Assembly (NCBI RefSeq): GCF_002813775.1 | Contig: NZ_CP020372.1 | Span: forward strand, 372,001-436,000 | DNA length: 64,000 nucleotides | From: Candidatus Thiodictyon syntrophicum | Lineage (GTDB): Bacteria > Pseudomonadota > Gammaproteobacteria > Chromatiales > Chromatiaceae | Reading direction: 5' to 3' | In this document: in pieces, positions 1,893-64,000 of the stretch | Layout: each line of letters starts with the position of its first letter | Position numbering within the stretch: position 1 is the first letter of the stretch | The notes under the pieces: generated by a model | Seen by the model: only the letters and a program-made list of their open reading frames with translations | The model's database searches: none | Told to the model about the DNA's origin: nothing | Translations under genes and position numbers: made by a program

Positions 1893-2660
1893 TCAGGCCG
1901 CGGCGCGCCGCCGCCGGCCGCTCGCCGGGCGTCCCGCCTCCACGCCGTGACCGATCGCCTCGTTGGCGGCCGGGGGCCAGGCCGCAGACCGGCCCAGGCG
2001 TTCCCGCCAGGTCGCGATCCAGGGCTCCACCCAGACCCCCGGGTCCAGATAGGCAGGCAGCCCCAGGGGCAGCGCCCGCACCACCGGGTGCGCGGCCGGT
2101 CGCAGCGGCACGGATGCAGGGGCCGCGGGGCGGGACTCGGGCAGGCGGCAATCGTATTCCAGGGTCCCGTCGCCCACCCAGTGGGGCTCACCGCCGAGTT
2201 GCCACGCCAGCCGCCGCATGCCGGCGTTCTCCGCCAGCACCTCGAACCAGAAGCGGCGGATGCCCTGACGCCGGGCCGCCGCAATCAGATGGGACAGGAG
2301 CGCCGCACCCACCCCCTGGCCCTGTATCAGGTCCACCGTGGCGATCGAGAACTCGGCCACCTCGCCCCCGGGGGTCAGACGGATGCAACGGGCGAAGCCC
2401 AGGGGCTCCAACTCCCGCCCAGCCGCATCGATCCGCACCGCGGCGAAGGCAATGTGGTCGCGCCCGTCCACGGCGCAGAAGCGGTCCAGTTCATCCGGGG
2501 CCAGGGCCCGCCGGTCGTTGAAGAAGCGCAGGCGCCGGGATTGCGGCGAGAGCGACTCGAAGCAGCGGATCAGCAGTCCGCGGTCATCCGCACCGGAAGG
2601 CCGGATCCGGTAGGCCGAGCCGTCGGCCAGGCGCCGCTCGAAAGAGAGTCGACGAAACAT
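1893..2660 (-). CDS. GNAT-family N-acetyltransferase
   Basis: The ATG at 2660 is preceded at a good distance by AGGAGG (seen on the minus strand), which rejects the longer upstream start. The protein is 255 residues. The N-terminal two-thirds is a single GNAT domain: RLADGSAYRIRPSGADD at its start, the acceptor-side strand VAEFSIATVDLIQ and the acetyl-CoA pyrophosphate loop QGQGVGAALLSHL, followed by an AENAGMRRLAWQLGG helix. This resembles the GNAT domain found alone or fused to acyl-CoA synthetases that acetylate proteins (Pat-like), but no synthetase part is present. The C-terminal ~70 residues are Pro/Ala/Arg-rich and probably unstructured. The substrate cannot be told from sequence. It is transcribed alone. 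Confidence 0.85.
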   Translation of the reverse strand: MFRRLSFERRLADGSAYRIRPSGADDRGLLIRCFESLSPQSRRLRFFNDRRALAPDELDRFCAVDGRDHIAFAAVRIDAAGRELEPLGFARCIRLTPGGEVAEFSIATVDLIQGQGVGAALLSHLIAAARRQGIRRFWFEVLAENAGMRRLAWQLGGEPHWVGDGTLEYDCRLPESRPAAPASVPLRPAAHPVVRALPLGLPAYLDPGVWVEPWIATWRERLGRSAAWPPAANEAIGHGVEAGRPASGRRRRAAA

Positions 2661-3058
2661 AGAAAACCTCCTGCCATAACGGCAGGTCCCGGCGGCAGGC
2701 CGCGGGGCGGCCCGAGGGCGCCGGGACGAGTGAGTAATGCCAGGAGGATGGGCGCGCCAGGCGTTGCAGTCAAGCAACAATGTGCTTTTTTCGCCTCAAA
2801 CCTACGAATATTTAATATTCATCGCGATACAGTACACGCGAGATCTGCCGAGCGGGGCAGCCTGATCGGCTGTTTCTTTTTTGTTGCACAATCAGAGGCT
2901 AGACCGAAGTTCCAGCGAGAACCATTCTCATCTTCGTCGCAAGCCCTTGAAATTTTTGTTCAATAGGTACTTGTTGCCGTCATTCCGCTCTAAAGTGTAC
3001 CCATGTAAACGGTCGTAGATAGCTTGTTATTTCGAGTTTTCCTGCTATATTTTTTCCC
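2661..3058. other. AT-richer intergenic stretch, left flank of the IS1634-type element
   Basis: No gene is seen. The stretch becomes markedly AT-rich from about 2780, unlike its surroundings, and should contain the acetyltransferase promoter on the minus strand and the left end of the insertion sequence. I could not place terminal inverted repeats with confidence. Confidence 0.5.
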
Positions 3059-4765
3059 ATGTACATCGACATCGTTCCAAACCGCAGCTCGCCCCCTGCC
3101 ATCTTGCTCCGCGAGTCGTTTCGCGAAGGCAAGAAGATCCTTAAGCGCACCATCGCCAACCTCTCGGCCTTGTCGCTGTCACAAGCCGAGGCGATTCGTG
3201 CCGTTCTCAAAGGCAAGCCGTTGGCCGCCGTTGATGAGGTCTTTGAAATCATCCGCTCGCGCGCGCATGGTGCGGTCAATGCGATCAGGCTGGCGATGGA
3301 GCACCTGCGGCTGAGTGCGCTCTTGGGGCGCGAAGCCTGCCGAGAGCGGGATCTGGTGCTGGCGATGATCGCCGCCCGGGTGCTAGACCCGCAAAGCAAA
3401 CTGGCGACCACGCGCAGTTGGGAGCACAGCACCCTGGGCGAGCTGTTCGGGGTCAGTGATGCTGATGAAAATGAGCTGTACGCGGCCTTGGATTGGCTGC
3501 GGGAGCGTCAGGCGGTCATTGAGCAACGATTGGCCAAGCGCCACCTGCACGAGGGGGGCCGCGTGCTCTACGACCTCTCGTCGAGCTATTTCGAGGGTGA
3601 GTCCTGCCCCCTGGCCGCGCGTGGCTACTCCCGTGACGGGAAGAAGGGGCTGCTGCAAGTCAACTACGGCTTGCTGACTGATGCGCGCGGTTGTCCGGTG
3701 GCCATCTCGGCCTTTGCGGGCAATACCACTGACCCCGAGACCTTGATGGCGCAGGTGGATCAGCTGCAACACGACTTTGCCCTGCAATCGGTCATCCTGG
3801 TGGGGGATCGCGGAATGATCTCGCAAACCCAGGTTGAGGCCCTGCGGGAGCGTGCCGGAGTGGCGTGGATCACGGCACTCAAGAGCGGGGCGATTCGCCA
3901 ACTGGCGGCGGCCGGTACGCTCCAGATGGATTTATTCGACGAGCGCAATCTCTTTGAATGCACCGACGAGGACTTTCCCGGCGAGCGGCTGATCGCGTGT
4001 CGCAATCCGCAACTGGCGAAATTGCGTGCGGCTAAGCGGCGCCAGCTCCTCGCGGCCACCACCACCGAATTAGAGACGGTACAACGGATGGTCGCCAATG
4101 GCCGACTGAAGGATCCGGACAAGATCGGCGTGCGGGTCGGGCGCGTGATCAACAAGTACAAGATGGCCAAGCATGTCGTGCTGGACATCACCGCCACGCA
4201 GTTCGTTTTCCATATCGATGAGGAGTCGGTGGCCGCAGAGGCGGCGCTGGACGGGCTCTACGTCATTCGCACGCCCCTGCCGGTCGCGCAGGTCAGCAGC
4301 GCCGAGGTCGTACTCCATTACAAGGGGTTGAGTCACGTCGAGGCGGCGTTCCGCTCGTTGAAAAGCGATGATCTACAGATTCGTCCGATCTACCACCATA
4401 CCGAAGAGCGGGTGCGTGCCCATCTGTTTCTATGCATGCTCGCCTATTACGTCAAATGGCACATGGGCGAGGCGTGGCGCAGTCTTCTGTTCGCCGATGA
4501 AGATCAGGAGCGTCTCACCCAGCGCGATCCCGTGGCGCCCGCGACCCGTTCGGACGCGGCTTTGGAAAAAGTGGCGAGCAAGCGACTCGCCGACGGCTCA
4601 CCGGCGCACAGCTTCCGGACCCTTCTCAATGAACTAGCCACCATCGTTCGCAATACCTGCCGACGTAAACAGGCCAGTGCCGATGAGGCGCTGTTCAACA
4701 TCGACACCACTCCTAACCCCAAGCAGCAGACGGCATTCGATTTGATCAAAACGATCCGCGTGTAG
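3059..4765 (+). CDS. IS1634-family (IS4 superfamily) transposase
   Basis: A 568-residue DDE transposase of full length. Recognisable features are the N-terminal region with SLSQAEAIRAVLKGKPL, the conserved block VLYDLSSSYFEGESCPLAA, the DDE signature surroundings YGLLTDARGCPVAISAFAGN and ILVGDRGMIS (catalytic Asp), and a C-terminal VEAAFRSLKSDDLQIRPIYH with the catalytic Glu in the insertion/RNase-H fold typical of IS1634 proteins. It would cut and paste its own element. The frame is intact, so the copy may be active. The surrounding AT-rich flanks (2780-3058 and 4766-4830) probably carry the element ends; I could not define the inverted repeats or target duplication. Confidence 0.88.
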   Translation: MYIDIVPNRSSPPAILLRESFREGKKILKRTIANLSALSLSQAEAIRAVLKGKPLAAVDEVFEIIRSRAHGAVNAIRLAMEHLRLSALLGREACRERDLVLAMIAARVLDPQSKLATTRSWEHSTLGELFGVSDADENELYAALDWLRERQAVIEQRLAKRHLHEGGRVLYDLSSSYFEGESCPLAARGYSRDGKKGLLQVNYGLLTDARGCPVAISAFAGNTTDPETLMAQVDQLQHDFALQSVILVGDRGMISQTQVEALRERAGVAWITALKSGAIRQLAAAGTLQMDLFDERNLFECTDEDFPGERLIACRNPQLAKLRAAKRRQLLAATTTELETVQRMVANGRLKDPDKIGVRVGRVINKYKMAKHVVLDITATQFVFHIDEESVAAEAALDGLYVIRTPLPVAQVSSAEVVLHYKGLSHVEAAFRSLKSDDLQIRPIYHHTEERVRAHLFLCMLAYYVKWHMGEAWRSLLFADEDQERLTQRDPVAPATRSDAALEKVASKRLADGSPAHSFRTLLNELATIVRNTCRRKQASADEALFNIDTTPNPKQQTAFDLIKTIRV

Positions 4766-19264: not shown

Positions 19265-19740
19265 GCGGGGGACTGGACCCGGCCCCCCGGTCGCGCTTGC
19301 ACAAGGGGGCCTGGTGGCCCTGGTCATAGTTCCGGCCGGCCGGAGTCCAAGGCTTCAGCCTTGGATGGGCACGCCAAGGCTGAAGCCTTGGACTCCAACT
19401 GCGCATCGCCGGCCGCAACGATGAACGAGGCCGGCCTGGTGACGCACGACAGACCGCGCATCGCGCGCCGGCGGTCAGGCCCTCGCCGGTGATCCGGGAA
19501 CCTCCCGGGCCGGCCGGCGCGGGTGTCGGCCGCCGACCGCAAGTCCAGCAGAACCAGCACACTACGGAAAGGACCTCAGGACGACTCCGGTCAGAGGTTC
19601 CCGGCTCTTTAACAATCAGCATCTTAGCGCCTGCACCCAGGCCCCGGCGGACGCCGGGACCGCCCGCCCGGCCGCGACTTCCGCAGGTTCCCGATTCCGG
19701 CTTGCAAGGCGCGGGGCGGACTGGCAAAATGAAGTCCGGA
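19265..19740 (+). promoter_or_regulatory. CRISPR leader region
   Basis: The gene-free stretch between cas2 and the first repeat. Repeat polarity (repeat ends in ATTGAAAC) and the decay of repeats at the far side place the leader here. It contains R1 hairpin 19342-19396 and a less GC-rich piece around 19605-19625. No reliable promoter boxes were recognised. Confidence 0.6.
19342..19396. repeat. Palindromic repeat R1 inside the CRISPR leader
   Basis: Same long hairpin as at 1.7, 45.4 and 51.8 kb, with arms GGAGTCCAAGGCTTCAGCC and its complement separated by about 15 bases. Its presence inside the leader means it was probably inserted there after the locus formed. Confidence 0.85.
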
Positions 19741-21104
19741 GTAGCGCTACTCCGAGCCGCAAAGGCTATTGAAACCCCAAGCACCACATTGAATACCCAT
19801 GCCAGCACTCCGTAGCGCTACTCCGAGCCGCAAAGGCTATTGAAACTCCATCGGCGAAAGTAAAACCGTCTGCTGCGCCGTTGTAGCGCTACTCCGAGCC
19901 GCAAAGGCTATTGAAACCCAGGAACCATCTTTGTAGACGAAAACATAAGGTGTAGCGCTACTCCGAGCCGCAAAGGCTATTGAAACTAGGAGGGAGTGCA
20001 AAGTTACCAATTCGTAGACTTGTAGCGCTACTCCGAGCCGCAAAGGCTATTGAAACAGGGTATCCTCACCGTCCAGGAGCTGCCGAAGTTGGTAGCGCTA
20101 CTCCGAGCCGCAAAGGCTATTGAAACCTTTCGCCAGGATATTGAGACTCTCCTCAAGATCGTAGCGCTACTCCGAGCCGCAAAGGCTATTGAAACAGCAT
20201 CTGGAAGGACGTTATTCCGATCCCGCACCAGTAGCGCTACTCCGAGCCGCAAAGGCTATTGAAACATCAGGGCGGCGATGGTTCTCAGGACGGGGTTGCT
20301 GCGTAGCGCTACTCCGAGCCGCAAAGGCTATTGAAACAGCGAAAGGGCACTCCACGCCGACAAGGCGAAAAACGTAGCGCTACTCCGAGCCGCAAAGGCT
20401 ATTGAAACTTTTCCGGATTTCCGCAGGCCTTGGCGATTACAAGGGTAGCGCTACTCCGAGCCGCAAAGGCTATTGAAACAATCGCTGTTGCGTCCGTCCA
20501 CGAACGTGCGCCCCGTAGCGCTACTCCGAGCCGCAAAGGCTATTGAAACAATCTGATACTCGGAAGGATTCCCCGCTGCCGTAGCGCTACTCCGAGCCGC
20601 AAAGGCTATTGAAACTTTTCACTCATGATCGTCTCCGAACAGGTTGGGTAGTAGCGCTACTCCGAGCCGCAAAGGCTATTGAAACGAGACGTTGAACAGC
20701 TGGTTGATAACATCGGAATTGAGTAGCGCTACTCCGAGCCGCAAAGGCTATTGAAACGGACACTGTGACCACCCCGGCCGCCACCATTACGTAGCGCTAC
20801 TCCGAGCCGCAAAGGCTATTGAAACCATAGCAACCTCTATAATCTCACCTAGCTTAGGGGTAGCGCTACTCCGAGCCGCAAAGGCTATTGAAACTGTCGC
20901 TCACGACACGCTTGATGTCAAAACCGAACACGTAGCGCTACTCCGAGCCGCAAAGGCTATTGAAACTTTCCGAAATTCTCCGATTGGGCAACATCAGGAA
21001 GGTAGCGCTACTCCGAGCCGCAAAGGCTATTGAAACCGTGACGGGCTCCCAGCCAAGCCGGTCCCAACAGTAGCGCTACTCCGAGCCGCAAAGGCTATTG
21101 AAAC
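19741..21104 (+). CRISPR. CRISPR array, 20 repeats of 35 bp and 19 spacers
   Basis: All 20 repeats appear identical. Each starts with the perfect palindrome GTAGCGCTAC, continues TCCGAGCCGCAAAGGCT and ends ATTGAAAC, the last 8 bases being the expected 5' handle of a Cas6-processed type III crRNA. Spacers are 31-37 nt (in order 36, 36, 34, 35, 35, 34, 35, 37, 36, 36, 35, 31, 35, 37, 33, 34, 37, 35, 33) and all differ. Variable spacer length is usual for type III. The leader lies on the cas2 side, so the newest spacers should be at the left. Decayed repeats of the same family at 21991-22077 and 22468-22489 suggest the array once reached further. Confidence 0.98.
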
Positions 21105-53969: not shown

Positions 53970-54305
53970 ATGGCACAACGGCGACGTACGCGCGAGCAGT
54001 GGCGGGAACTGGTTGAGGGTTGGCCGCGCAGCGGCTTGACGCAGCAGGCGTACTGCGAGCGCCACGGCGTCGCGCCGGGTAGCCTGCAACGCTGGCGGGA
54101 GGTATTCCGCCAGGCGCGTGCCCGCGGCCATGACCAGACCGCGGAGGCGGTGCGGCTGGTGCCGGTGCAGTGGGTCGACGCCCTGCCGACGGTCGTGACG
54201 CCACTGATCCTGGTGCTGGCGGATGGGCAGCGCCTGGAGATCGCCCCGGACTTCGATACCGCCACCCTCAAACGGGTGTTGACGGTGCTGCAGGAGGCGG
54301 CATGA
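53970..54305 (+). CDS. tnpA: IS66 accessory protein TnpA
   Basis: 111 residues. Starts with the DNA-binding region RTREQWRELVEGWPRSGLTQ, then QAYCERHGVAPGSLQRWREV, the helix-turn-helix of IS66 TnpA, and ends LILVLADGQRLEIAPDFD, TLKRVLTVLQ. It is needed for IS66 transposition with TnpB and TnpC. It overlaps tnpB by 4 nt. Confidence 0.9.
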   Translation: MAQRRRTREQWRELVEGWPRSGLTQQAYCERHGVAPGSLQRWREVFRQARARGHDQTAEAVRLVPVQWVDALPTVVTPLILVLADGQRLEIAPDFDTATLKRVLTVLQEAA

Positions 54306-54655
54306 TCGCATTCGACAGCCATACCCAGGTTTATCTGGCGCTGGGGCCAACGGACATGCGCAAGTCCATCGACGGCCTGGCGGTGCTGGTCACTGAGGTG
54401 CTGGCGGCCGACCCCTTCTCCAGTCATCTGTTCGTTTTTTGTAATCGCGCACGCGATAAAGTAAAGCTGCTGTTCTGGCATAACAACGGCTTCTGGCTGT
54501 GGTACCGGCGCCTGGAGCGACAACGCTTCTGGTGGCCAAGTGAATCCACTGGCGGCGCGATAACACTCTCGGTACGCGAGTTGGGGTGGTTACTGGAGGG
54601 CCTGGATCCGCGGCGGGTTGAGGCGCATCGGCGGACCGACTTTTCATTGCTCTAA
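54302..54655 (+). CDS. tnpB: IS66 accessory protein TnpB
   Basis: 117 residues from ATG 54302. The family pattern is plain: VYLALGPTDMRKSIDGLAVL, PFSSHLFVFCNRARDKVKLL, FWHNNGFWLWYRRLERQRFW. It is intact and overlaps tnpA (ATGA). This is the IS66 TnpB, not the RNA-guided TnpB nuclease of IS200/IS605. Confidence 0.92.
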   Translation: MIAFDSHTQVYLALGPTDMRKSIDGLAVLVTEVLAADPFSSHLFVFCNRARDKVKLLFWHNNGFWLWYRRLERQRFWWPSESTGGAITLSVRELGWLLEGLDPRRVEAHRRTDFSLL

Positions 54656-54703
54656 TGGCTTATCCGGGTGACTTCTCATCACCCCTCTGCTATGATTGGC
54701 GAC

Positions 54704-56158
54704 ATGCTCAATAGCACGCCATTGCCACCCACTGACCCGATGCTCCTGCAAGGAATCATCGCGCAGTTGCATGAGCAATTGGATGAGCAGATGGCCGCCA
54801 TGCAGCGGGAGCGGGCGCACCATGTCGCCACCCTGGAGCAGCAACGCCAGCGGATTGATCAGCTCCTGGAATACATCGAACTGCTGCGGCGCAAGCGCTT
54901 CGGTCCCAGTGCCGATCGGGTTCCTGACGCCCAGTTGAAGCTCTTCGATGAAGCCGAGTTGGAAGCGCTGATCGGTGAGCTGGAGGCCCAACTGCCGGCC
55001 GCCGCACCGCCGCCGCCGAAAGACACCATCCCGGACCCGACGCTGCCACCCAAGCGTCAGCCGGTGCGCCGCCCCTTACCCGCGCATCTGCCACGGGTGG
55101 AGCGCATCCTCGATCTGTCTGCCGATGAGAAGGCGGCCCTGGGTGCGGACTGGACCTTCATCGGTTACGACACCTCCGAGCAACTGGCGGTCATCCCGCG
55201 CCAGACCTATGTCATCGAATATAAGCGCGCCAAGTATGTGGCGCGCGATGAGGACGTGCCCGGCGCTGAGGTCGGGGTAAAGATCGCCCCGCGCCCGGTG
55301 CAAATCATCCCCAAGTCGATCGCCCACAGCTCGCTGCTGGCGGCCATCGTCACCGCCAAGTTCGTCGATGCCCTGCCGTTGTATCGGCAGGAGAAGATCT
55401 TTGCCCGTGAGGGCATCGAACTGAGTCGCCAGACCATGGCCGGGCTGCTCATACAACTGCACACCGCGCTCACGCCGGTGGCCGCCGCACTGCACGACCT
55501 GCTGCGCCAAGGGCCGGTGATCCATATCGACGAGACCCCGGTGCAGGTGCTGCGCGAGCCCGGACGCACGGCCGAGCAGAAGTCCTACATGTGGGTCTTC
55601 TGTGGCGGACCGCCAGGAGCGCCGGTGCGCTGGTTCAAATACGCCCCGAGTCGTGCCGCCACGGTGCCGCAAGCGGTGCTGTTCCCGCCCGCCGCGGACC
55701 CACCGACCGACGCACCACCGCTCTCCTTCTACCTGCAATCCGACGGCTACAGCGCTTATCACGTCCTGGCCAACGCGCCCGGCGTGCTGGGCCATGCCGG
55801 GTGTTGGGCGCACGTGCGCCGCAAATTCGTCGAGGCCGCCGCCGGGCGCAACGCCAGCGCCGCCCAGCAGATGGTCGCCTTGATCGGCGAACTCTATAGC
55901 GTGGAGCGCAGTGTCCGCGGCGCCGCCCCGGCGATCCGCCACGCCGCACGGCAGGCGCGCAGTCGCCCGATCCTCGACACGATCAAGCAGTGGCTCGACA
56001 CCACCGCCCCGCGGGTCCTGCCCAAGAGCTTGCTTGGGCGCGCGATCGGCTATGCCCTCGGGCAATGGCCGACGCTGACGACCTTCCTGGATGACGGCCG
56101 CCTTGAGATCGACAACAACACCGCGGAGAACTGCATCCGGCCCTTCGTCACCGGTCGG
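54704..56158 (+). pseudogene. tnpC: IS66 transposase TnpC, 5' part (split by RIT element)
   Basis: 485 codons remain on this side. The N-terminal leucine-zipper-like helix (LEQQRQRIDQLLEYIELLRR) is followed by the zinc-binding/HTH part, then the DDE domain with VIHIDETPVQVLREPG (Asp), SDGYSAYHVL (Asp) and RLEIDNNTAENCIRPFVTG (Glu). The frame breaks after GR at 56158; in other copies KNWLF follows, which is found at 59616. ATG 54704 was chosen; 54668 and 54692 are in frame. Confidence 0.93.
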
Positions 56159-56307
56159 AATTATGTGCAGCTCCGGATTATGCGCAGTTGCCGGTTCGGT
56201 GACTGCCGCGGTACGTTGATACAGCGAGTGTTTCCGTCTGCGGCAGTCGCCCCGGCTGCGCATAAGACTGTGGGTACCCCTAGATCTCCCGATGACGGAG
56301 GGTACCC

Positions 56308-57504
56308 ATGTCAGAGCAGCTTCTTGGCGATTTCCGTTCGTACCTGGCGGCGCGGGGTCACACCCCCGGAACGCAGCACCAGTACGCGGCGGTGGCGGCT
56401 CACTTCCTCGCCTGGCTGGGCGAGCAGCCGCCCGATCGGCAGCAGATCGACGCACCAGCAGTACAGGTCTTTCTCTACGAGCACCTGCCTGCTTGCCGCT
56501 GCCCACCGCCGAACCCGAAACACCGCAAGAGCGTCCGCGCCGCGCTGAACCGACTGCTGGTGATGGGCGGCGAAACGCGCCTGCGCCCACGAAGTCCACC
56601 GTCCAGTCCGAGCATTGAGGCCATGGTGGCGCGCTTCGATACGTACCTCCGCGACGTGTGCGGCTTGGCCGACGCGACGCGCTGGTACCGCCGCCGTTAC
56701 GTGCGTGCCTTCTTGGCCGGTCAGTTTGGGGATGGACCGGTCACGGTCGGCCGGATCGCTCCAGACGCCCTGATCCGGTTCGTGACCGAGCAAGCGCACC
56801 TCCAGCGACCCGGCAGCGTCGGCGTCCTGGCCTATTCGTTGCGTAGCTTTCTGCGCTTTCTTCAGTTTGAAGGGGAGCTGCCGGCCGACCTGACCGGCGC
56901 GGTACCGACACCGCCACACTGGTCGCTCGCCCCACTACCGCCCAGCCTGAGCGCGGCGGAACTCGCACGCCTCTGGGGCGCCTTCGATCGCGCGACCGCG
57001 CTCGGGCGCCGGGACTATGCCATGGCCCGCTGTCTGGCCGATCTGGGCCTGCGGTGCCAGGAAGTGGCCGCGTTACGGCTCGACGACATCGATTGGCGAA
57101 CGGGAGTCCTGCATCTGCGGCCCGGCAAGAGCCGCCAAGCCGCGCAGTTGCCGCTCCCCGCGCCGACCGGGGCGGCCCTGGCCGATTATCTGCGCCACGG
57201 GCGACCCACGACGCCGAGTCGGGCGCTTTTCGTCCAGCACCGCGCACCGGTGGGCGAGGTCGCCGCCAAGACCACGGTGCGCGGCGCGATCCGCCGGGCC
57301 TTCGCGCGCGCGGGCCTGCCGTGGTCTGGGACCCACATCCTGCGCCACACTGCCGCCGCGCGCATGGTCCAGGGCGGCAGTTCACTGAAGCTCGTGGCCG
57401 ACGTGCTGCGCCATCGCAGCATCGACACGACCGCGATCTACGCCAAGGTGGACCTGCCCAATCTGTCGCGCGTGGCCCTGCCCTGGCCGGGGAGGTCGTT
57501 ATGA
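56308..57504 (+). CDS. RIT tyrosine recombinase A
   Basis: 398 residues. An N-terminal SAM-like region (LLGDFRSYLAARGHTPGTQH) and a second core-binding stretch precede the catalytic domain: Arg in LGLRCQEVAALRLDDI, Lys in HLRPGKSRQA, HILRHTAAARMV and Tyr in TTAIYAKVDL. GGAGGG precedes ATG 56308. It is the first of three overlapping recombinases, each probably acting together in moving the element. It overlaps the second gene by 4 nt. Confidence 0.92.
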   Translation: MSEQLLGDFRSYLAARGHTPGTQHQYAAVAAHFLAWLGEQPPDRQQIDAPAVQVFLYEHLPACRCPPPNPKHRKSVRAALNRLLVMGGETRLRPRSPPSSPSIEAMVARFDTYLRDVCGLADATRWYRRRYVRAFLAGQFGDGPVTVGRIAPDALIRFVTEQAHLQRPGSVGVLAYSLRSFLRFLQFEGELPADLTGAVPTPPHWSLAPLPPSLSAAELARLWGAFDRATALGRRDYAMARCLADLGLRCQEVAALRLDDIDWRTGVLHLRPGKSRQAAQLPLPAPTGAALADYLRHGRPTTPSRALFVQHRAPVGEVAAKTTVRGAIRRAFARAGLPWSGTHILRHTAAARMVQGGSSLKLVADVLRHRSIDTTAIYAKVDLPNLSRVALPWPGRSL

Positions 57505-58457
57505 GCCACTGGTCGACCATGCAGGAACGAGTGACGGCCTATCTGACAGCGCGCCGTCGGTTGGGGTATGCCCTGCGCATCGAAGGTGAGCAGTTGCAGC
57601 GCTTTGCCCAGTTCGCCGATGCCCGCGGGCACAACGGCCCCATCACGGCACAGTTGGCCCTGGAGTGGGCCTGTGCCTCCGCGCGGAGCGGCCCGATTGG
57701 CCGGGCGCGCCGGTTGGAGGTGGTCCATCCCTTCGCCAAGTTCTGTGCGGCGTTCGAGGCAGAGACCCAGATCCCACCGGCCGGTGCGCTTGGGCCGGCC
57801 CATCGCCGGCTGACGCCCCACATCTACACCGATGAGGAAATCGATCAACTGCTGGCGGGGGCCGGCGCACTGACTCCAGCCCGGGGGCTGCGACCAGCCA
57901 GCATGCAGTGTCTGCTGGGGCTCCTGGCGGCCACCGGCCTGCGCGTCTCGGAGGCACTGCACCTGCAGCGCACGGACGTGGATCTGGCGCGCGGCCTGCT
58001 GTGCGTGCGCCAGACCAAGTTCTGCAAGTCCCGGTATGTGCCCTTGCACCCCACCGCCAGCGCCGCGCTGCGCGAGTATGCGCAGTTGCGCGACCGGCGC
58101 TTGCCGCTGAGCCGCGAGCCAGCCTTCTTTCTGCGCGACGACGGTCGCCCCCTGGGCTACGCGCAAGCGCTCTATGCCTTTCATTGCATCCGCACCCGAC
58201 TCGGATGGGACCGCGCGCCCGAAGGCCGGCCCCGGCTCTATGATCTGCGCCATACCTTCGCCTGTCGCCGACTGCTCGCCTGGTACCAGGAAGGCATCGA
58301 TCTGGCCTGGGCCGTCCCGCTGTTGTCGACCTATCTGGGGCACGTCAAGGTCACCGATACCTATTGGTACCTCACCGGCATTCCGGCGCTGATGGGCATC
58401 GCCGGGGAGCGCTTCCAGCGACTGGCGCAGTCTGGCGGCGCGGAGGCGACACCATGA
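57501..58457 (+). CDS. RIT tyrosine recombinase B
   Basis: 318 residues from ATG 57501, which overlaps the first recombinase stop. Catalytic-domain features: Arg in ATGLRVSEALHLQRTDVD, Lys in VRQTKFCKSRYVPL, LYDLRHTFACRRL and a Tyr in DTYWYLTG. The earlier in-frame start at 57054 lies inside recombinase A and is not used. It ends with a 4-nt overlap into recombinase C. Confidence 0.92.
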   Translation: MSHWSTMQERVTAYLTARRRLGYALRIEGEQLQRFAQFADARGHNGPITAQLALEWACASARSGPIGRARRLEVVHPFAKFCAAFEAETQIPPAGALGPAHRRLTPHIYTDEEIDQLLAGAGALTPARGLRPASMQCLLGLLAATGLRVSEALHLQRTDVDLARGLLCVRQTKFCKSRYVPLHPTASAALREYAQLRDRRLPLSREPAFFLRDDGRPLGYAQALYAFHCIRTRLGWDRAPEGRPRLYDLRHTFACRRLLAWYQEGIDLAWAVPLLSTYLGHVKVTDTYWYLTGIPALMGIAGERFQRLAQSGGAEATP

Positions 58458-59461
58458 ACGCCCCGCAGTGTCCAACCGATTTGGCCCGCCTGCTCCAGGC
58501 CTTCTTCTGTCAGCACCTCATGCAGCAGCGCGGCGCGAGCCGCCAGACGATCAACGGGTATCGGGATACCTTTCGACTCTTGCTGCGGTTTGCCGAAACC
58601 TCTTGCGGGAAGTCCATCGGCGAGTTGGCTCTGGCCGATCTGGACGCCGCGCTGGTGCTGGCGTTTCTCGAGGATCTGGAGACCCGTCGGCATAACACGG
58701 TGCGCACCCGCAATGCCCGGCTCGCCGCTATCCGCGCCTTCGTGCACTATGCCGGTCTGCAAGAGCCCGCGGCGCTGCCGGTGATACAACGGATCTTGGC
58801 GATCCCGGCCAAACGCTTCGACCGGCCCGTGGTCGGCTTTCTGTCCCGCGCAGAGATCGAGGCGATCTTGCAGGCGCCGGATGCGCGCACCTGGAGCGGC
58901 CAGCGTGACCGTGCCTTGCTGACGGCGATGTACAACACCGGCGCCCGCGTGTCGGAGCTGGTCGCGGCGCGGCGCGTGGACTTGGAAAGCGAACACTGCC
59001 AGGCCCTGCATCTGCATGGCAAGGGCCGCAAGGAGCGGGTCGTGCCGCTGTGGGCGCGGACGACGAAGCTGCTGCGCGACTGGTTGGCGCGGATCGGAGC
59101 GGAGCCTCAGCAGCCCTTGTTTCCGAACCGCCAGGGGCAACCGATGACTCGCTCCGGGGTCGCTTCGCGCCTGGCGCGCAGCGTGCGGGCCGCCAGTTCC
59201 TGCTGTCCCTCGCTCCAGGATAGGCGGGTATCGCCGCACTCGGTGCGGCACACCACCGCGATGCATCTGCTCCAGGCCGGGGTGGACCTGACCGTGATCG
59301 CCCTGTGGCTGGGGCACGAAAGCGTGGAGACGACCCACCAGTATATGGAAGCGGACTTGCGAATGAAGGAGCAGGCGCTGGCGACCCTTCAGGCACCGCC
59401 CGTCGGTCCGCCGCGCTTTGTGGCGTCGCCGACGTTGCTGGCCTTCTTGGACGGCCTCTGA
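58454..59461 (+). CDS. RIT tyrosine recombinase C
   Basis: 335 residues from ATG 58454 (ATGA overlap). N-terminal core-binding part RGASRQTINGYRDTFRLLLR; catalytic Arg in YNTGARVSELVAARRVDLES, Lys in LHLHGKGRKERVVPL, SPHSVRHTTAMHLLQAG, LGHESVETTHQYMEADL with the nucleophile Tyr. Complete. The region after it (59462-59586) has several ATTATGCGCA-type sites likely bound by the recombinases. Confidence 0.92.
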   Translation: MNAPQCPTDLARLLQAFFCQHLMQQRGASRQTINGYRDTFRLLLRFAETSCGKSIGELALADLDAALVLAFLEDLETRRHNTVRTRNARLAAIRAFVHYAGLQEPAALPVIQRILAIPAKRFDRPVVGFLSRAEIEAILQAPDARTWSGQRDRALLTAMYNTGARVSELVAARRVDLESEHCQALHLHGKGRKERVVPLWARTTKLLRDWLARIGAEPQQPLFPNRQGQPMTRSGVASRLARSVRAASSCCPSLQDRRVSPHSVRHTTAMHLLQAGVDLTVIALWLGHESVETTHQYMEADLRMKEQALATLQAPPVGPPRFVASPTLLAFLDGL

Positions 59462-59612
59462 TTATGCGCAGGCGGCGCTGACGCCGCCGCCTGACCAGGG
59501 TCTGAAACCCAAGCTGCTCCGCCAGTTGCCTTCCCGGAAACCAGAGGTGCTGGCGGAACTGCGCATAATCCGGAGCTGCACATAATTCCGATTATGCCGA
59601 GCTCGGCATAAT

Positions 59613-59834
59613 CGGAAAAACTGGCTCTTCTCCGGCAGCCCCAAGGGTGCTGAGGTCAGCGCCACCCTCTACAGCCTGGTGGAAACGGCCAAGGCCAACG
59701 GCCTGGAACCCTGGGTGTACCTCAACCACCTCTTCGAGCACCTGCCGACGGCCAAGACCCCGGAGGCCATCGCCGCGCTGCTGCCTCACAATTTGAAATT
59801 AGACGACCTGAAACGGGAAGGGTCAATCCTGTAG
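59613..59834 (+). pseudogene. tnpC: IS66 transposase TnpC, 3' part
   Basis: 73 codons: RKNWLFSGSPKGAEVSATLY, SLVETAKANGLEPWVYLNHL, FEHLPTAKTPEAIAALLPHN, stop at 59834. It continues exactly where the 5' part stops at 56158, so precise excision of the RIT element would restore the gene. Confidence 0.93.
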
Positions 59835-59858
59835 TTGCCCGGACGCTTACGTTGCGCG

Positions 59859-60023
59859 AAGGCCATGGGGCTACGAGTCATCGGAACGCTTGGCGTCGTC
59901 GGCCGCGCCAAGTCCGCGGGACGGATCGCCGCCGCCGTGCCCGTCATCGAACACCTGCGTAGGACCGGGCTCTATATCTCGGATGCACTGGTGCGGCATA
60001 TTTTGGAGCAGGTTGGCGAGTAA
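59859..60023 (+). pseudogene. DUF3368 PIN-domain toxin, 3' part
   Basis: After the second GTTGCGCG the original frame resumes: KAMGLRVIGTLGVVGRAKSA, GRIAAAVPVIEHLRRTGLYI, SDALVRHILEQVGE and stop. This is the conserved C-terminal third of DUF3368 proteins (GLxVIGTLGVL, AKxxGxI). Joined to residues 1-108 it gives a normal-length toxin. Confidence 0.88.
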
Positions 60024-60210: not shown

Positions 60211-61065
60211 TCACCAGTCGTATGCGCCTCCACGTGCGAGAAATCTTTCGACGTCGTAGTTCATGTCCGCGATGGCTAACTCTACACCAACATCGAGAAT
60301 CTTTCGACTGGCGGTATATTTTCCGGACGCGTTCTCAAGGAATCGACCAGCAGGATCCACCATTACATAGCTGCCCAGCATATCATCATTTCCTTCTATA
60401 ACTACAGTGACTCTAAAATCGAGTCGCGAGTTTCGATCAACGAAGCGGGCGAAAGACTCGGTACTGACCGAAAGGGTGTCCACGATGTGATCATTCTCGC
60501 CCGCAATTGGCAGTACCCGCATGATCTTCCAGCGGTCGGGCTTAATTCTTTCCATCGTTTGGCCCAAATTCTCCGAAACGTTAACTCTAGTTACAACGGA
60601 ATTTACTCTAAGCTTTATTCCAACCTCACGAGCCACATCTGCAATCTCGACAAGGCGATCTACAGAGATTACATGTCGTCCAGCTACGGCTCGCCCATGC
60701 ACTAGATTAGTACGAGTCTCGGCGGAGTCGATGCTTAAGACAAGCCAGTTCAAACTCTTGGACAAGGCGCGGACGCGCCGCGACTCAAGCAGACTGCCAT
60801 TTGTGACTAGGACGGTGATCATTCCAGCCTGCGACGCGACTTGGATTATCTCGTCGAGCCAAGGACAGAGTGTTGGTTCTCCGCCGGCAAAGGTGATCTT
60901 CTTAAAGCCAAACCGTGCGAGTAACTTCACCACGAGCTCAGCGTCTGAAAATGGTAAGCCACGAGTATAATTAGCATCAAGAACGCTATCGTACTTCGCG
61001 AAGCAAAAGGCGCATCGCATATTGCATTTGCGCCATAGGTGATAGTTAACTGCCTCTATTCTCAT
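60211..61065 (-). CDS. Prokaryotic viperin homolog (radical SAM nucleotide dehydratase)
   Basis: 284 residues. The radical SAM cluster ligands are Cys14, Cys18 and Cys21 in NYHLWRKCNMRCAFCFA, matching viperin's NYHxTRxCNxxCxFCF. Further viperin marks: TFAGGEPTL, VTNGSLL, LSIDS, LRVNSVVTRVNVSENL, IKPDRWKIMRVLPIAGEN, MLGSYVMVDPAGRFLEN, SRKILDVGVELAI and the end FLARGGAYDW. Viperins convert CTP or other NTPs to 3'-deoxy-3',4'-didehydro nucleotides that terminate phage RNA synthesis. It is the last gene of a leftward operon, 78 nt after the phosphatase-family gene. The GC content is far lower than in the rest of the window, pointing to horizontal transfer. The nucleotide it acts on cannot be read from the sequence. 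Confidence 0.93.
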   Translation of the reverse strand: MRIEAVNYHLWRKCNMRCAFCFAKYDSVLDANYTRGLPFSDAELVVKLLARFGFKKITFAGGEPTLCPWLDEIIQVASQAGMITVLVTNGSLLESRRVRALSKSLNWLVLSIDSAETRTNLVHGRAVAGRHVISVDRLVEIADVAREVGIKLRVNSVVTRVNVSENLGQTMERIKPDRWKIMRVLPIAGENDHIVDTLSVSTESFARFVDRNSRLDFRVTVVIEGNDDMLGSYVMVDPAGRFLENASGKYTASRKILDVGVELAIADMNYDVERFLARGGAYDW

Positions 61066-61143
61066 GGAAACTATTTCCGCGCAAATCCGGCTGGCCAGAA
61101 CAGAATATACAGCGCCAAGAGTCGATTCACTGAGCGATACTGC

Positions 61144-61968
61144 TTAACGAATATCTCGTATAGCGCTGAGAATTTCCGCACACAAAATATAATTCCCAGA
61201 GGCTACGAAAGTTACTGGTAGATCTGGATTGATTTCATGGATATTCATTTCTGCCCCATCTAGATTTGTGATGACTCCGCCAGCCTCGGATATTAGCAGT
61301 AGTCCGCTGCAGACGTCGCCAAAAAGAGCGTTAAAACAAACCATGGCGTCCAGTTGGCCGTCAGCAATGCGAGCAAGGTCGGCCGCTGGAGCCCACATGG
61401 TTACAACTCGACGCGCCCTTCTGCTTAGAGCCAAGTACGCCGTCTCTCCCATCTTTCTGTCGGAAATAGAGTAACCGGTTACTAAGCTAACTGTTGCAGC
61501 TTGCATACTTTTCGCGGCGTCAAGGTGCAGGCGGTTACCATCGCAAGTGGCGCCAGCGGACAATCTCGCAACATATGTATGAGAAGTTATGGGATCATGA
61601 ATGACTCCTACGAGCAGGCGCTGACGTGAACGGAGACATATTGATACCGCGATGTAAGGAATGCCAACGGCGAAGTTGTTTGTGCCATCTAGTGGATCAA
61701 CAATCCAAACAGTGTCCTGCGCCCAATTAGGCTTTGCTGTCATTTCCTCCGAAATAACAGGAATGCTTGGATACTGGTCTGTTAAGAGAGAAATAATGAG
61801 TTCCTCGGACTGTATGTCAATATCCAGTTGAACGTCAAAGTTGCCTTTAGGTGTGGGCTCTGATAGATAACCAAAGCGAGATATGATGAGCGCCCCAGCT
61901 TCACTCGCGATCCGCGCCGCGGCGTTTGACACTTGATCAAGATCGATGTCCGCTGGTGACCTTTTCAC
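61144..61968 (-). CDS. Inositol monophosphatase-family enzyme in the viperin operon
   Basis: 274 residues from GTG 61968, which overlaps the upstream stop (GTGA) and has GGAG at a good distance; the longer frame to 62163 overlaps the upstream gene and is rejected. The metal-binding motifs are complete: PVISEEMT, VWIVDPLDGTNNFAVGIPYI and WAPAADLARIADGQLDAMV. The family includes inositol, fructose-1,6-bis- and 3'(2'),5'-bisphosphate (CysQ-like) phosphatases, all Mg-dependent. In this setting a nucleotide-related substrate is plausible but unproven. GC content matches the viperin gene. Confidence 0.88.
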   Translation of the reverse strand: MKRSPADIDLDQVSNAAARIASEAGALIISRFGYLSEPTPKGNFDVQLDIDIQSEELIISLLTDQYPSIPVISEEMTAKPNWAQDTVWIVDPLDGTNNFAVGIPYIAVSICLRSRQRLLVGVIHDPITSHTYVARLSAGATCDGNRLHLDAAKSMQAATVSLVTGYSISDRKMGETAYLALSRRARRVVTMWAPAADLARIADGQLDAMVCFNALFGDVCSGLLLISEAGGVITNLDGAEMNIHEINPDLPVTFVASGNYILCAEILSAIRDIR

Positions 61969-62909
61969 TCTCTTATTCTCCGTAGCTTGAATTCTTCTGC
62001 GGCCAGTTGGTAGAGAAAGGGTACGAATCCTGCGACGAGAGCGACCCCCAATGACCCTAAGACTTGGCCAATTACTGATATGCTTTTCGTGGTTTCTCCC
62101 AGGGTCATTAATAGCAGGAGGCAGACGAAAAATGTCAAGGCAGAGTTCCAAATATACAGCCATTTACTGGGCCGAGATCTCCCATATGCGGCAAGGCCTT
62201 TGGCTTGGTCAAAACCGGAAAACGCGCGTGTCCACGCCAAATCGATTTCCGATTTTCTAAAGTCGGCGATCAGTAGTTCGGCAACGTTCTCGATTGCTGT
62301 TTGCCGAGCGGCATTCAAAGCGTACAAGGCGTCGTGAGTGGCCCAAATGGGCTCGTGTCCAGGCGTCAAGACAGACGACCAGTAGCCCAAAGTGTGTTGC
62401 TGATGCAGCAGCCATTGCATTGATGCCACACAGGTAAAGCTGCTTATTGGCCGCCGCGCCGCAAGCAGCGCCGCCAAAACCCAGGGAGTGCTAGAGTGTC
62501 GAAAATCAATGGCGGCGTCTGTGTCGACGACCTCCATCTCAGATGTACTTGGCCAGGGCTCAGGTTCGGCAGGGTGAAATGTGGCGTCGAGGTAGTTGAG
62601 TGCCTTTTCAACTTGTTCATCGTCCGCGCTTTGACCGCCGGCAAGGAGCGCGAGGATGGCATGCGCTGTGTGAATTGATGTCGATGCGCGTCCGGCACTT
62701 GGGTCAGTGCCTGGCAATGCTCCCCAACCGCCGTCGCCATTCTGTGCGCTTCGAAGCCACGCCAAACCGGCTCTCACCGCTGGCGAGCTTGGAAAGAACT
62801 CAGACAAAAATCGCAATGCGAAAGCGGTGGGGTATACCCGGGGGCGCGGGCAGCCGGGAATGGAGCCCCATCCGCCAGAGTCGTGTTGTGCAGATTCAAC
62901 CCATTCCAT
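61965..62909 (-). CDS. Alpha/alpha-toroid (prenyltransferase/squalene-oxidase repeat) protein with two membrane segments
   Basis: 314 residues from ATG 62909, but the same frame stays open to about 63030 (…NTATYAYSKYNAVTRG before MEWVES), so the N-terminus may be longer or lost at the IS630 insertion. Toroid-type repeats are seen in SAQHDSGGWGSIPG, LRSAQNGDGGWGALPGTD and IWATHDALYALNAARQ. The C-terminus has two hydrophobic segments (ALTFFVCLLLLMTLG and GSLGVALVAGFVPFLYQL). The QxxDGGWG repeats are those of terpene cyclases and prenyltransferases, but no cyclase DxDD motif is seen here. It heads the operon, so it is probably a membrane-bound sensor or effector. Confidence 0.6.
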   Translation of the reverse strand: MEWVESAQHDSGGWGSIPGCPRPRVYPTAFALRFLSEFFPSSPAVRAGLAWLRSAQNGDGGWGALPGTDPSAGRASTSIHTAHAILALLAGGQSADDEQVEKALNYLDATFHPAEPEPWPSTSEMEVVDTDAAIDFRHSSTPWVLAALLAARRPISSFTCVASMQWLLHQQHTLGYWSSVLTPGHEPIWATHDALYALNAARQTAIENVAELLIADFRKSEIDLAWTRAFSGFDQAKGLAAYGRSRPSKWLYIWNSALTFFVCLLLLMTLGETTKSISVIGQVLGSLGVALVAGFVPFLYQLAAEEFKLRRIRE

Positions 62910-63037
62910 TCCTCGCGTTACTGCATTATACTTGCTATAGGCATAAGTTGCGGTATTATAGATAGCATTTTCCCTGCCGCCCGAGCAAGCTAGGGAGGTG
63001 GCCCCTCCTAATCTTTGAATTCTTATGGAGCCATGAC

Positions 63038-64000
63038 ATGTACAATTGCGAGTTCCCTAATCGAGATAAGGATATCATTGAGAAGGCTCGTCTCTACGAT
63101 TCATCTCCGGTAATTCGCAAGCGCATGAGTATTCTTTGGTATAAGTCACTTGGATATTCTCATCATGAAATCGCTCGGCTTAGCAGTGCTTCTGGAAATA
63201 CGATTATAACCACGATTCGTAGCTATATAGATGGTGGGCTCAACAAAGTTATGAAGCGGCGACCGTATCGCCCTCAAAGCGAATTACAAGACCACCGTTA
63301 TCTCCTAAAGAAACATTTTTCTGAACATCCGCCTGGCAGCTTAAAGGAGACCGCTTCTGAAATTGAAAAACTAACCGGTATCAAGCGTAGTCTCGGTAGC
63401 GTTCGCACCTTCTTGCTTTCTATCGGCATGTATCGGAGAAAAGTCGGGATGGTTCCAGCAAAAGGTGATCCCGACGAACAGGAAGCATTTATAAACAATA
63501 AGTTACAACCAATTCTGAATGAGGCGATAGCCGGGAATCGTCACGTCTATTTCGTTGATGCCGCCCATTTTGTACTTGCTCCATTTTTGGGTTTCCTGTG
63601 GTCATTTACGCGCCTATTTATCAAAGCGCCTGCTGGCCGTAAGCGATTTAATGTCTTGGGTGCCCTGAATGCTGTGACCCATGACATCGTCACGGTCACC
63701 AATGATACATATATTGACGCGATCAGTGTTTGCGCGCTCCTACGTAAGATTGCTGCATGTCACATTGGCGAAGCCATCACACTGATCTTAGATAATGCAA
63801 AATACCAAAAATGTCGCATTGTGGCTGAGCTTGCACAAGAGCTGAAAATCGATCTGCTTTATCTACCTCCCTACTCACCAAATCTTAATCTGATCGAAAG
63901 ATTATGGAAATACGTAAAGAAAAAGGCACTTTATTCAAAATATTACGAGGATTTTCCGAAATTCAAGAGCGCAATATCAAACTGCTTGAGCGATGCGAAC
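63038..64000 (+). CDS. IS630-family transposase (3' end outside window)
   Basis: 321 codons are visible without a stop, running off the right edge. ATG 63038 has GGAG upstream. The N-terminal half is helix-turn-helix (LWYKSLGYSHHEIARLSSAS, then SLKETASEIEKLTGIKRSLG). DDE residues: VYFVDAAHF (Asp), LILDNAKYQ (Asp) and NLNLIERLWKYVKKK (Glu) following YLPPYSPN. This is the IS630/Tc1-mariner pattern. GC content is low, as in the viperin operon. The left end of the element should lie between about 62910 and 63030; IS630 elements target TA. Confidence 0.9.
   Translation, partial: MYNCEFPNRDKDIIEKARLYDSSPVIRKRMSILWYKSLGYSHHEIARLSSASGNTIITTIRSYIDGGLNKVMKRRPYRPQSELQDHRYLLKKHFSEHPPGSLKETASEIEKLTGIKRSLGSVRTFLLSIGMYRRKVGMVPAKGDPDEQEAFINNKLQPILNEAIAGNRHVYFVDAAHFVLAPFLGFLWSFTRLFIKAPAGRKRFNVLGALNAVTHDIVTVTNDTYIDAISVCALLRKIAACHIGEAITLILDNAKYQKCRIVAELAQELKIDLLYLPPYSPNLNLIERLWKYVKKKALYSKYYEDFPKFKSAISNCLSDAN

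Follow-up and report, generated by a model that had tools for sequence, protein, structure and literature searches.

A 64,000-nucleotide stretch of DNA from Candidatus Thiodictyon syntrophicum (contig NZ_CP020372.1, positions 372,001 to 436,000; hereafter the window) carries a real but damaged copy of what is apparently an undescribed, conserved variant of the viperin systems of prokaryotes: its viperin gene is accompanied by genes for an alpha/alpha-toroid protein and for a phosphatase of the inositol monophosphatase (IMPase) family (Table 1). Viperins convert a nucleoside triphosphate (NTP) to 3'-deoxy-3',4'-didehydro-NTP (ddhNTP), which terminates phage RNA synthesis. The human enzyme is antiviral, and its bacterial relatives are usually treated as single enzymes, at times with a nucleotide kinase beside them. 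Our preferred reading, to which we assign a probability of roughly 0.43, is that the place of the nucleotide kinase is taken here by a phosphatase and by a membrane protein that probably binds nucleotides, the two serving in clearing and regulation. The wider question is how cells keep in check an enzyme with a product able to halt their own transcription.

Table 1. Positions of the operon genes, of the inserted element, and of a related gene pair in a second genome (window numbering unless a locus is given).
Feature	Position	Strand	Supporting match
Prokaryotic viperin (radical SAM nucleotide dehydratase), 284 aa	60211..61065	-	PADLOC pVip, NF038283
IMPase-family phosphatase, 274 aa, GTG start at 61968	61144..61968	-	PF00459 9.7e-44
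Toroid gene, 3' part (C-terminal toroid half and two membrane segments)	61965..62928	-	SQHop_cyclase_C 1.1e-12
IS630-type element inside the toroid gene	62929..64000, on to about 64085 past the window end	+	DDE_3 1.4e-25, TA duplication on either side
Toroid and IMPase pair in the viperin-free genome G770	L082:6038-8665	-	

All three genes are encoded on the minus strand, and the tight coupling described in the initial annotation is present in the sequence: the toroid stop codon and the GTG start of the IMPase gene overlap by 4 nucleotides (GTGA, 61965-61968), and 78 nucleotides (61066-61143) separate the IMPase and viperin genes. The low content of guanine and cytosine (GC) that it had also pointed out was confirmed (0.498 for viperin, 0.490 for IMPase, and 0.554 for the toroid part, compared to 0.669 at window positions 54001-60000). 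However, the surrounding replicon was mistaken for the chromosome. The locus is plasmid-borne and not chromosomal, the replicon being pTs485 (484,824 bp, 65.59% GC) of 'Thiodictyon syntrophicum' Cad16T, a purple sulfur bacterium in the family Chromatiaceae, as described in PMC5944118. The whole host genome comprises 7,738,984 bases in three contigs. The proposed mobile-DNA setting is borne out by an IS66 transposase and three tyrosine recombinases among the left-hand neighbors of the locus.

The radical SAM enzyme is a clear member of the pVip family (also called SAND), in line with its first assignment as a viperin. It scored 288.5 bits against NCBIfam NF038283 (cut-off 180), and the PADLOC pVip models matched with E-values between 1e-87 and 7e-76; these include pVip (1.6e-82) and, with 1e-87, pVip-kinase, a fusion model of which only the viperin part was matched (180-460 of 474). 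The cysteines of the radical SAM motif CxxxCxxC are conserved at C14, C18, and C21, and among the solved sequences nearest to it are viperins and viperin-like enzymes (best E-value 1.9e-43). In a tree of 57 viperin homologs, built without a non-viperin outgroup and without five fragments shorter than 240 aa (L056-L060; L and G numbers denote loci and genomes), the window viperin pairs with that of locus L083 (100/99) within a starred 28-row group, although the tree program flags these two as long branches that meet.

The toroid gene of the window is interrupted by an element of 1.16 kb, which we take to belong to IS630; its transposase open reading frame (63038-64081) encodes a DDE_3 domain, and TA is duplicated at its target, as found with elements of this type. 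Three further copies with the same ends and 98.8-98.9% identity are present in the host genome, a near-identity that suggests recent spread. A 7-bp duplication around the insertion was also considered and discarded, as the common ends of the four copies show TA. The 5' part of the toroid gene lies at about 64088-64827, past the window end: the full-length toroid protein of Thermomonospora echinospora (L032) matches the host with residues 260-591 in the window and with residues 124-256 beyond the insertion, and, when joined at the empty site, the two sides share one reading frame and can be aligned along the L083 toroid. Judged by these alignments, the window toroid is the C-terminal remnant of a split gene. 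Because the window thus lacks the 5' part of this gene, the ATG at 62909, from which the open reading frame had been listed (61965-62909, minus strand, SQHop_cyclase_C match 1.1e-12), is probably not the natural start. The span up to 63030 that was originally given for the operon had to be corrected, since it takes in the end of the insertion element. A promoter of this element that drives the IMPase and viperin genes was rejected as a candidate: consensus matches numbered 10, compared to 5.8 in shuffled sequences (standard deviation 2.3), and no promoter consensus was found on the minus strand near the element edge that faces the IMPase gene. Past the toroid 5' part and outside the window, we noted a gene of a PD-(D/E)XK transposase family (PF12784; L066:8299-9279, plus strand).

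The full partner protein, modeled in a relative, is predicted to have about 500-600 residues and to consist of a pseudo-Nudix domain, an alpha/alpha toroid, and, in the IMPase-linked copies, a membrane hairpin. The N-terminal domain of the L032 protein, about 100 residues in length, was modeled alone with a mean predicted local distance difference test score (pLDDT) of 87, and a Foldseek search with this model returned NUDT7, NUDT12, NUDT18, ADP-ribose pyrophosphatases, MutT2, and MutY, the best E-value (7.9e-6) being that of 3rh7, which is titled a putative oxidoreductase. Whereas the predicted fold resembles Nudix hydrolases such as NUDT7/12/18, ADP-ribose pyrophosphatase, and MutT2, the catalytic Nudix box, GX5EX7REUXEEXGU, is absent from all 11 rows that hold the N-terminal domain; a loose RE..E within this domain occurs only in L079, at position 61. 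The domain therefore appears to be a Nudix fold that lacks the catalytic box, which suggests a binding role. The 5' part of the toroid gene of the host is likewise assigned, by homology to the modeled relative, a putative pseudo-Nudix domain, and it also holds the first half of the toroid. A gene with a true NUDIX domain (1.1e-21; L081:9952-10437, minus strand) directly adjoins the complete operon of L081, the toroid protein of which carries the box-less Nudix-like domain.

Behind the N-terminal domain, the model shows a long helix followed by the alpha/alpha toroid, and both the predicted fold and the repeats in the sequence are those of this class. Foldseek matched the toroid to drimenyl diphosphate synthase and squalene-hopene cyclase (best E-value 1.9e-8) and also to AprG, which is titled a transaldolase in the PDB. 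The protein thus shares the toroid and the DGGW repeats with class II terpene cyclases and squalene-hopene cyclases, but it differs from them by the added Nudix-fold domain and the membrane hairpin, and it has no conserved DxDD, the acid motif of class II terpene cyclases: a single DRDD occurs at residue 346 of L083, and none is found in the other 11 rows. On this ground, the terpene-cyclase reading was ruled out. T242, E243, R405, and H406 are conserved across the toroids and possibly form a ligand site (L090 was not included in alignment A3).

The initial annotation had described a toroid protein with two membrane helices. Two hydrophobic C-terminal segments are indeed found, with hydropathy peaks at 253 and 277 of the window part, but the frame taken for the whole protein covers just the 3' part of the gene. 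Such a C-terminal pair is present in all nine IMPase-linked toroids (the second peak of L083 being weak, 1.49) versus none of the three without an IMPase (L021, L029, and L090, with one weak peak of 1.35 in L029). PADLOC contains no model for the toroid protein (0 of 12 rows), and neither toroid nor IMPase gave a significant match to a toxin domain. Taken together, the partner protein looks more like a nucleotide binder than like an enzyme, and it may be tied to the membrane in the phosphatase-bearing copies.

The second partner belongs to the IMPase superfamily, as it combines the PF00459 domain with metal-binding residues. E74/E75, D91, D94, and D218 (window numbering), which we take to be the metal ligands, are invariant in all nine operon IMPases, and because of this invariance the protein is probably an active phosphatase. 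The operon IMPases resemble SuhB/inositol monophosphatase in their fold, in the metal ligands, and in the motif DPLDGT, but differ by carrying WAPAxDL and [KR]GxxDVQL, which are common to all nine, and the window member remained far below all six listed NCBIfam equivalog cut-offs (SuhB, CysQ, HisN, and FBPase/IMPase types). The CysQ model was weakly matched by all nine, with 82.3 bits for the window member compared to a cut-off of 228.8. Among solved structures, the closest are SuhB/IMPase entries, including 6tqn and 6tqo, presumably transcription complexes, and others named Nus factor SuhB; the best SuhB-type match reached 104 bits over the generic fold, and a profile built from the nine IMPases ranked 5zhh first with a lead of less than 1 bit.

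The initial annotation had named a failure of the three genes to co-occur elsewhere as the outcome that would count against a joint system, and this outcome was not observed. A scan of genome contigs with the viperin alignment gave 47 loci, to which seven others were added; the resulting 54 include two repeats (L010 in L049 and L014 in L054) and seven loci shorter than 8 kb. The window toroid was found at three of them (L021, L029, and L032) and the window IMPase at one (L032), and no IMPase was found at 1e-3 at any of the 51 toroid-free loci, to which the two repeats belong. L032 has viperin, a toroid protein of 595 aa, and IMPase, with a 4-base overlap at both junctions. When its toroid was used as query at 1e-15 in wider genome searches, which scored 3-5 candidates per genome, matches were obtained in 2 of the 394 genomes searched from its class, in 8 of 297 from its family (G142 and G492 being counted in both), and in 3 of 249 genomes from the family of L029. 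The L083 toroid, used at 1e-12 on 369 genomes of the host's class, matched the host only, and at 1e-10 the host and two partial cyclase-like matches were found in 398 genomes of the host's phylum. The latter two, from Pseudomonadota (G1531, 2e-11; G1304, 6e-11), cover only residues 230-372 of the query in frames of 660-667 aa, look like ordinary cyclases, and were left out of the toroid counts.

In total, 12 genomes were toroid-positive, of which eight had been found by the toroid alone (G492, G611, G630, G645, G648, G650, G770, and G856), whereas G142, G143, and G144 had been found via their viperin and were not included in this count. Viperin and IMPase each adjoin the toroid in seven of these eight, and all three genes stand together in six. 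Across the 12 genomes, 11 have viperin, nine have IMPase, and eight have the full set, the host with its split toroid included; a second, frame-split toroid copy at L021 was not counted separately. The record of L021 is labeled Rhodococcus rhodnii, yet this 12.4-Mb genome surfaced in a family search centered on Kibdelosporangium and is probably mislabeled. The full set occurs in four genomic contexts, namely the locus shared by five actinobacteria (L032, L071, L078, L079, and L080), L081, L083, and the window, and toroid plus IMPase occur in a fifth, L082. Plasmid searches with the window toroid part and with the L032 and L083 toroids, as well as a phage search with the L032 toroid, gave no match, and searches of viral contigs gave no toroid and a single viperin (L065). 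The mobility of the variant was thus seen no further than the host plasmid.

Two gene orders are found. The order viperin-toroid-IMPase is present at six loci (L032, L071, and L078-L081), in which all 12 junctions overlap by 4 nucleotides (the IMPase starts in L079 and L080 were set by homology), and the order toroid-IMPase-viperin is present at L083 and in the window. The pairing of these two in the viperin tree is echoed by the identities of all three proteins, which are 50.4, 44.3, and 45.9% between window and L083, compared to 43.8, 40.3, and 35.5% to L032; in each protein, neither of the two is as close to L032 as to the other. Toroid-linked viperins form two lineages in the tree, window plus L083 on the one hand and the others, which are actinobacterial, on the other, with L023 nested inside the latter; a search of the L023 genome for the toroid at 1e-5 gave no match. 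The toroid-linkage label requires 3 changes on the tree, compared to 10.2 in shuffles. As the same set occurs in two gene orders on separate viperin branches, these comparisons argue for a functional unit.

Regarding known systems, related viperin loci with an adjoining kinase were seen in our set: L009 and L010 have an annotated deoxynucleoside or thymidylate kinase, and L022 and L024 have, by Pfam, a cytidylate-kinase-like and a deoxynucleotide-monophosphate-kinase-like protein, respectively. In contrast to these pVip-kinase loci, the operon combines its viperin with the pseudo-Nudix-toroid protein and IMPase, and no nucleotide kinase, adjacent or fused, was seen among the open reading frames at the window block, L032, L071, L081, and L083 (L078-L080 were examined for the three operon genes and their flanks only). 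The proposal that a phosphatase-family enzyme stands in place of a kinase is supported by the invariant ligands and the operons read, but the IMPase is not a constant component, being present in nine of the 12 toroid genomes. A PfkB sugar-kinase gene lies two genes away from the L081 operon on the opposite strand. Viperins with HicA or RelE toxin neighbors, described in PMC10865869, are alike in their multi-gene context around pVip, but those partners differ from the toroid and IMPase set. Among the PubMed Central full-text matches listed, none describes the three-gene set, in agreement with the initial annotation, although a prior account in subscription papers is possible; nothing there combined viperin, inositol monophosphatase, and bacteriophage, and the architecture of pseudo-Nudix, toroid, and membrane hairpin was likewise without description among the listed matches.

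From these data we infer the defense function, the substrates, the sensing, and the order of events as follows. Viperin would, as its family suggests, convert NTP to ddhNTP and thereby stop phage RNA synthesis. The pseudo-Nudix-toroid protein would be held in the membrane and act as a nucleotide receptor or regulator, recognizing the viperin substrate, its product, or an infection signal and setting viperin activity. The IMPase-family enzyme, standing in place of the nucleotide kinase found beside related viperins, would dephosphorylate a metabolite of the viperin pathway and thus clear a product or by-product, which would spare the host. Several observations weigh against this proposal. The toroid models were built on alignments of four sequences, with a mean pLDDT of 72 for the full-length model; the template modeling (TM) scores of the Nudix matches are only about 0.42-0.61 over the query, and a Pfam search of the toroid proteins gave no Nudix domain. 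G770 has toroid and IMPase without a viperin in its genome at 1e-25, and in the stretches read at L021, L029, and L090, viperin and toroid are present without an IMPase. Because L032, L071, L078, L079, and L080 share both flanks, a universal stress protein gene on one side and a small gene on the other, these five of the eight full sets are, by their gene neighborhoods, one inherited chromosomal locus and neither five events nor a mobile defense island (at L081, L083, and the window, neither flanking gene was found at 1e-10). Finally, the split of the toroid gene by the insertion element has probably impaired the host system or left it with viperin and IMPase only.

A possible yet doubtful form of control is built-in product sensing, in which the dead-Nudix/toroid membrane receptor would bind the chain terminator or its precursor and IMPase would act as an eraser, gating viperin output or triggering a membrane response; if this were true, the ddh-nucleotide would be both a poison and a signal under regulation. 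It is unlikely that the genes instead form a biosynthetic cassette, with viperin making a ddh-nucleotide, IMPase dephosphorylating it, and the toroid protein serving as enzyme or carrier on the way to a ddh-nucleoside or a modified lipid that could be an antibiotic or a shared antiviral. In its favor, IMPase-family genes are frequent in natural-product clusters, the toroid model also matches AprG, the four conserved toroid residues could form an active site, the chromosomal locus shared by the five actinobacteria is a stable one, and two of the 12 toroid loci have a gene for a polyprenyl synthetase beyond the operon (L032:12144-13184, minus strand; L071:4422-5459, plus strand). Because of this shared locus and the nearby synthetase, we weighed the preferred reading slightly down and the biosynthetic one up. 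However, the synthetase was not found in the other ten toroid loci at 1e-10, no transporter or resistance gene recurs by eye next to L071, L081, L082, and L083, the box-less Nudix fold suggests binding, and PADLOC scores place the viperin of the window among the pVip defense proteins. L032 and L071 also share other flanks.

The remaining alternatives concern the phosphatase or deny a joint function. A CysQ-like role, in which IMPase would clear an inhibitory by-product such as a 3',5'-bisphosphate nucleotide while the toroid protein anchors viperin at the membrane, would fit the weak CysQ matches of all nine IMPases, and animal viperin is itself held at the membrane through its N-terminal extension, as stated in PMC9279394. 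We nevertheless regard this role as rather improbable, since the window member does not reach the CysQ cut-off and the toroid lacks the membrane hairpin in three loci. The SuhB-type entries closest to the window IMPase could indicate that it acts as a Nus factor by which the RNA polymerase of the host would be spared from halting at ddh-nucleotides, whereas the phage enzyme would halt, but this is markedly improbable: the best match is just the 104 bits over a generic fold, the invariant metal ligands favor catalysis, and the nine-member profile places 5zhh first, even if narrowly. The view that the three genes are independent neighbors, brought together by chance or shared mobility, could appeal to the insertion elements and recombinases around the window locus and to the single inheritance of the five other sets. 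Chance adjacency is nonetheless very unlikely, the least probable of these explanations, in view of the recurrence in four contexts and two orders, the 4-nucleotide overlaps in the viperin-first loci, and the missing IMPase at the toroid-free loci.

Should the regulatory reading be correct, a conserved nucleotide-receptor-like partner and a phosphatase would make the control of viperin directly testable and could reveal ddh-nucleotides as signals; intact copies of the cassette exist in actinobacteria.

Some side aspects concern other viperins and the window itself. Two viperins of the toroid clade, from Nonomuraea (L023:8840-11707) and Streptosporangium (L058:8839-10739), adjoin an AIR-synthase-like gene and an unassigned protein that we read as phosphoribosyltransferase-like, L023 additionally having a PfkB kinase; these neighbors are possibly another partner set for viperin. 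Downstream of each of two Chloroflexota viperins, and overlapping it, lies a frame of about 870 codons without family assignment (L026:8809-11442 and L037:8836-11433). At L015, a second viperin-like frame (2417-3364, minus strand), which by eye has lost the middle cysteine of CxxxCxxC and gave no Pfam match at 0.001, adjoins the viperin and is perhaps a degenerate tandem paralog. Elsewhere in the window, an array of clustered regularly interspaced short palindromic repeats (CRISPR) with 20 repeats at 19723-21104 coincides in position with the pTs485 array CRR5, as listed in PMC5944118.

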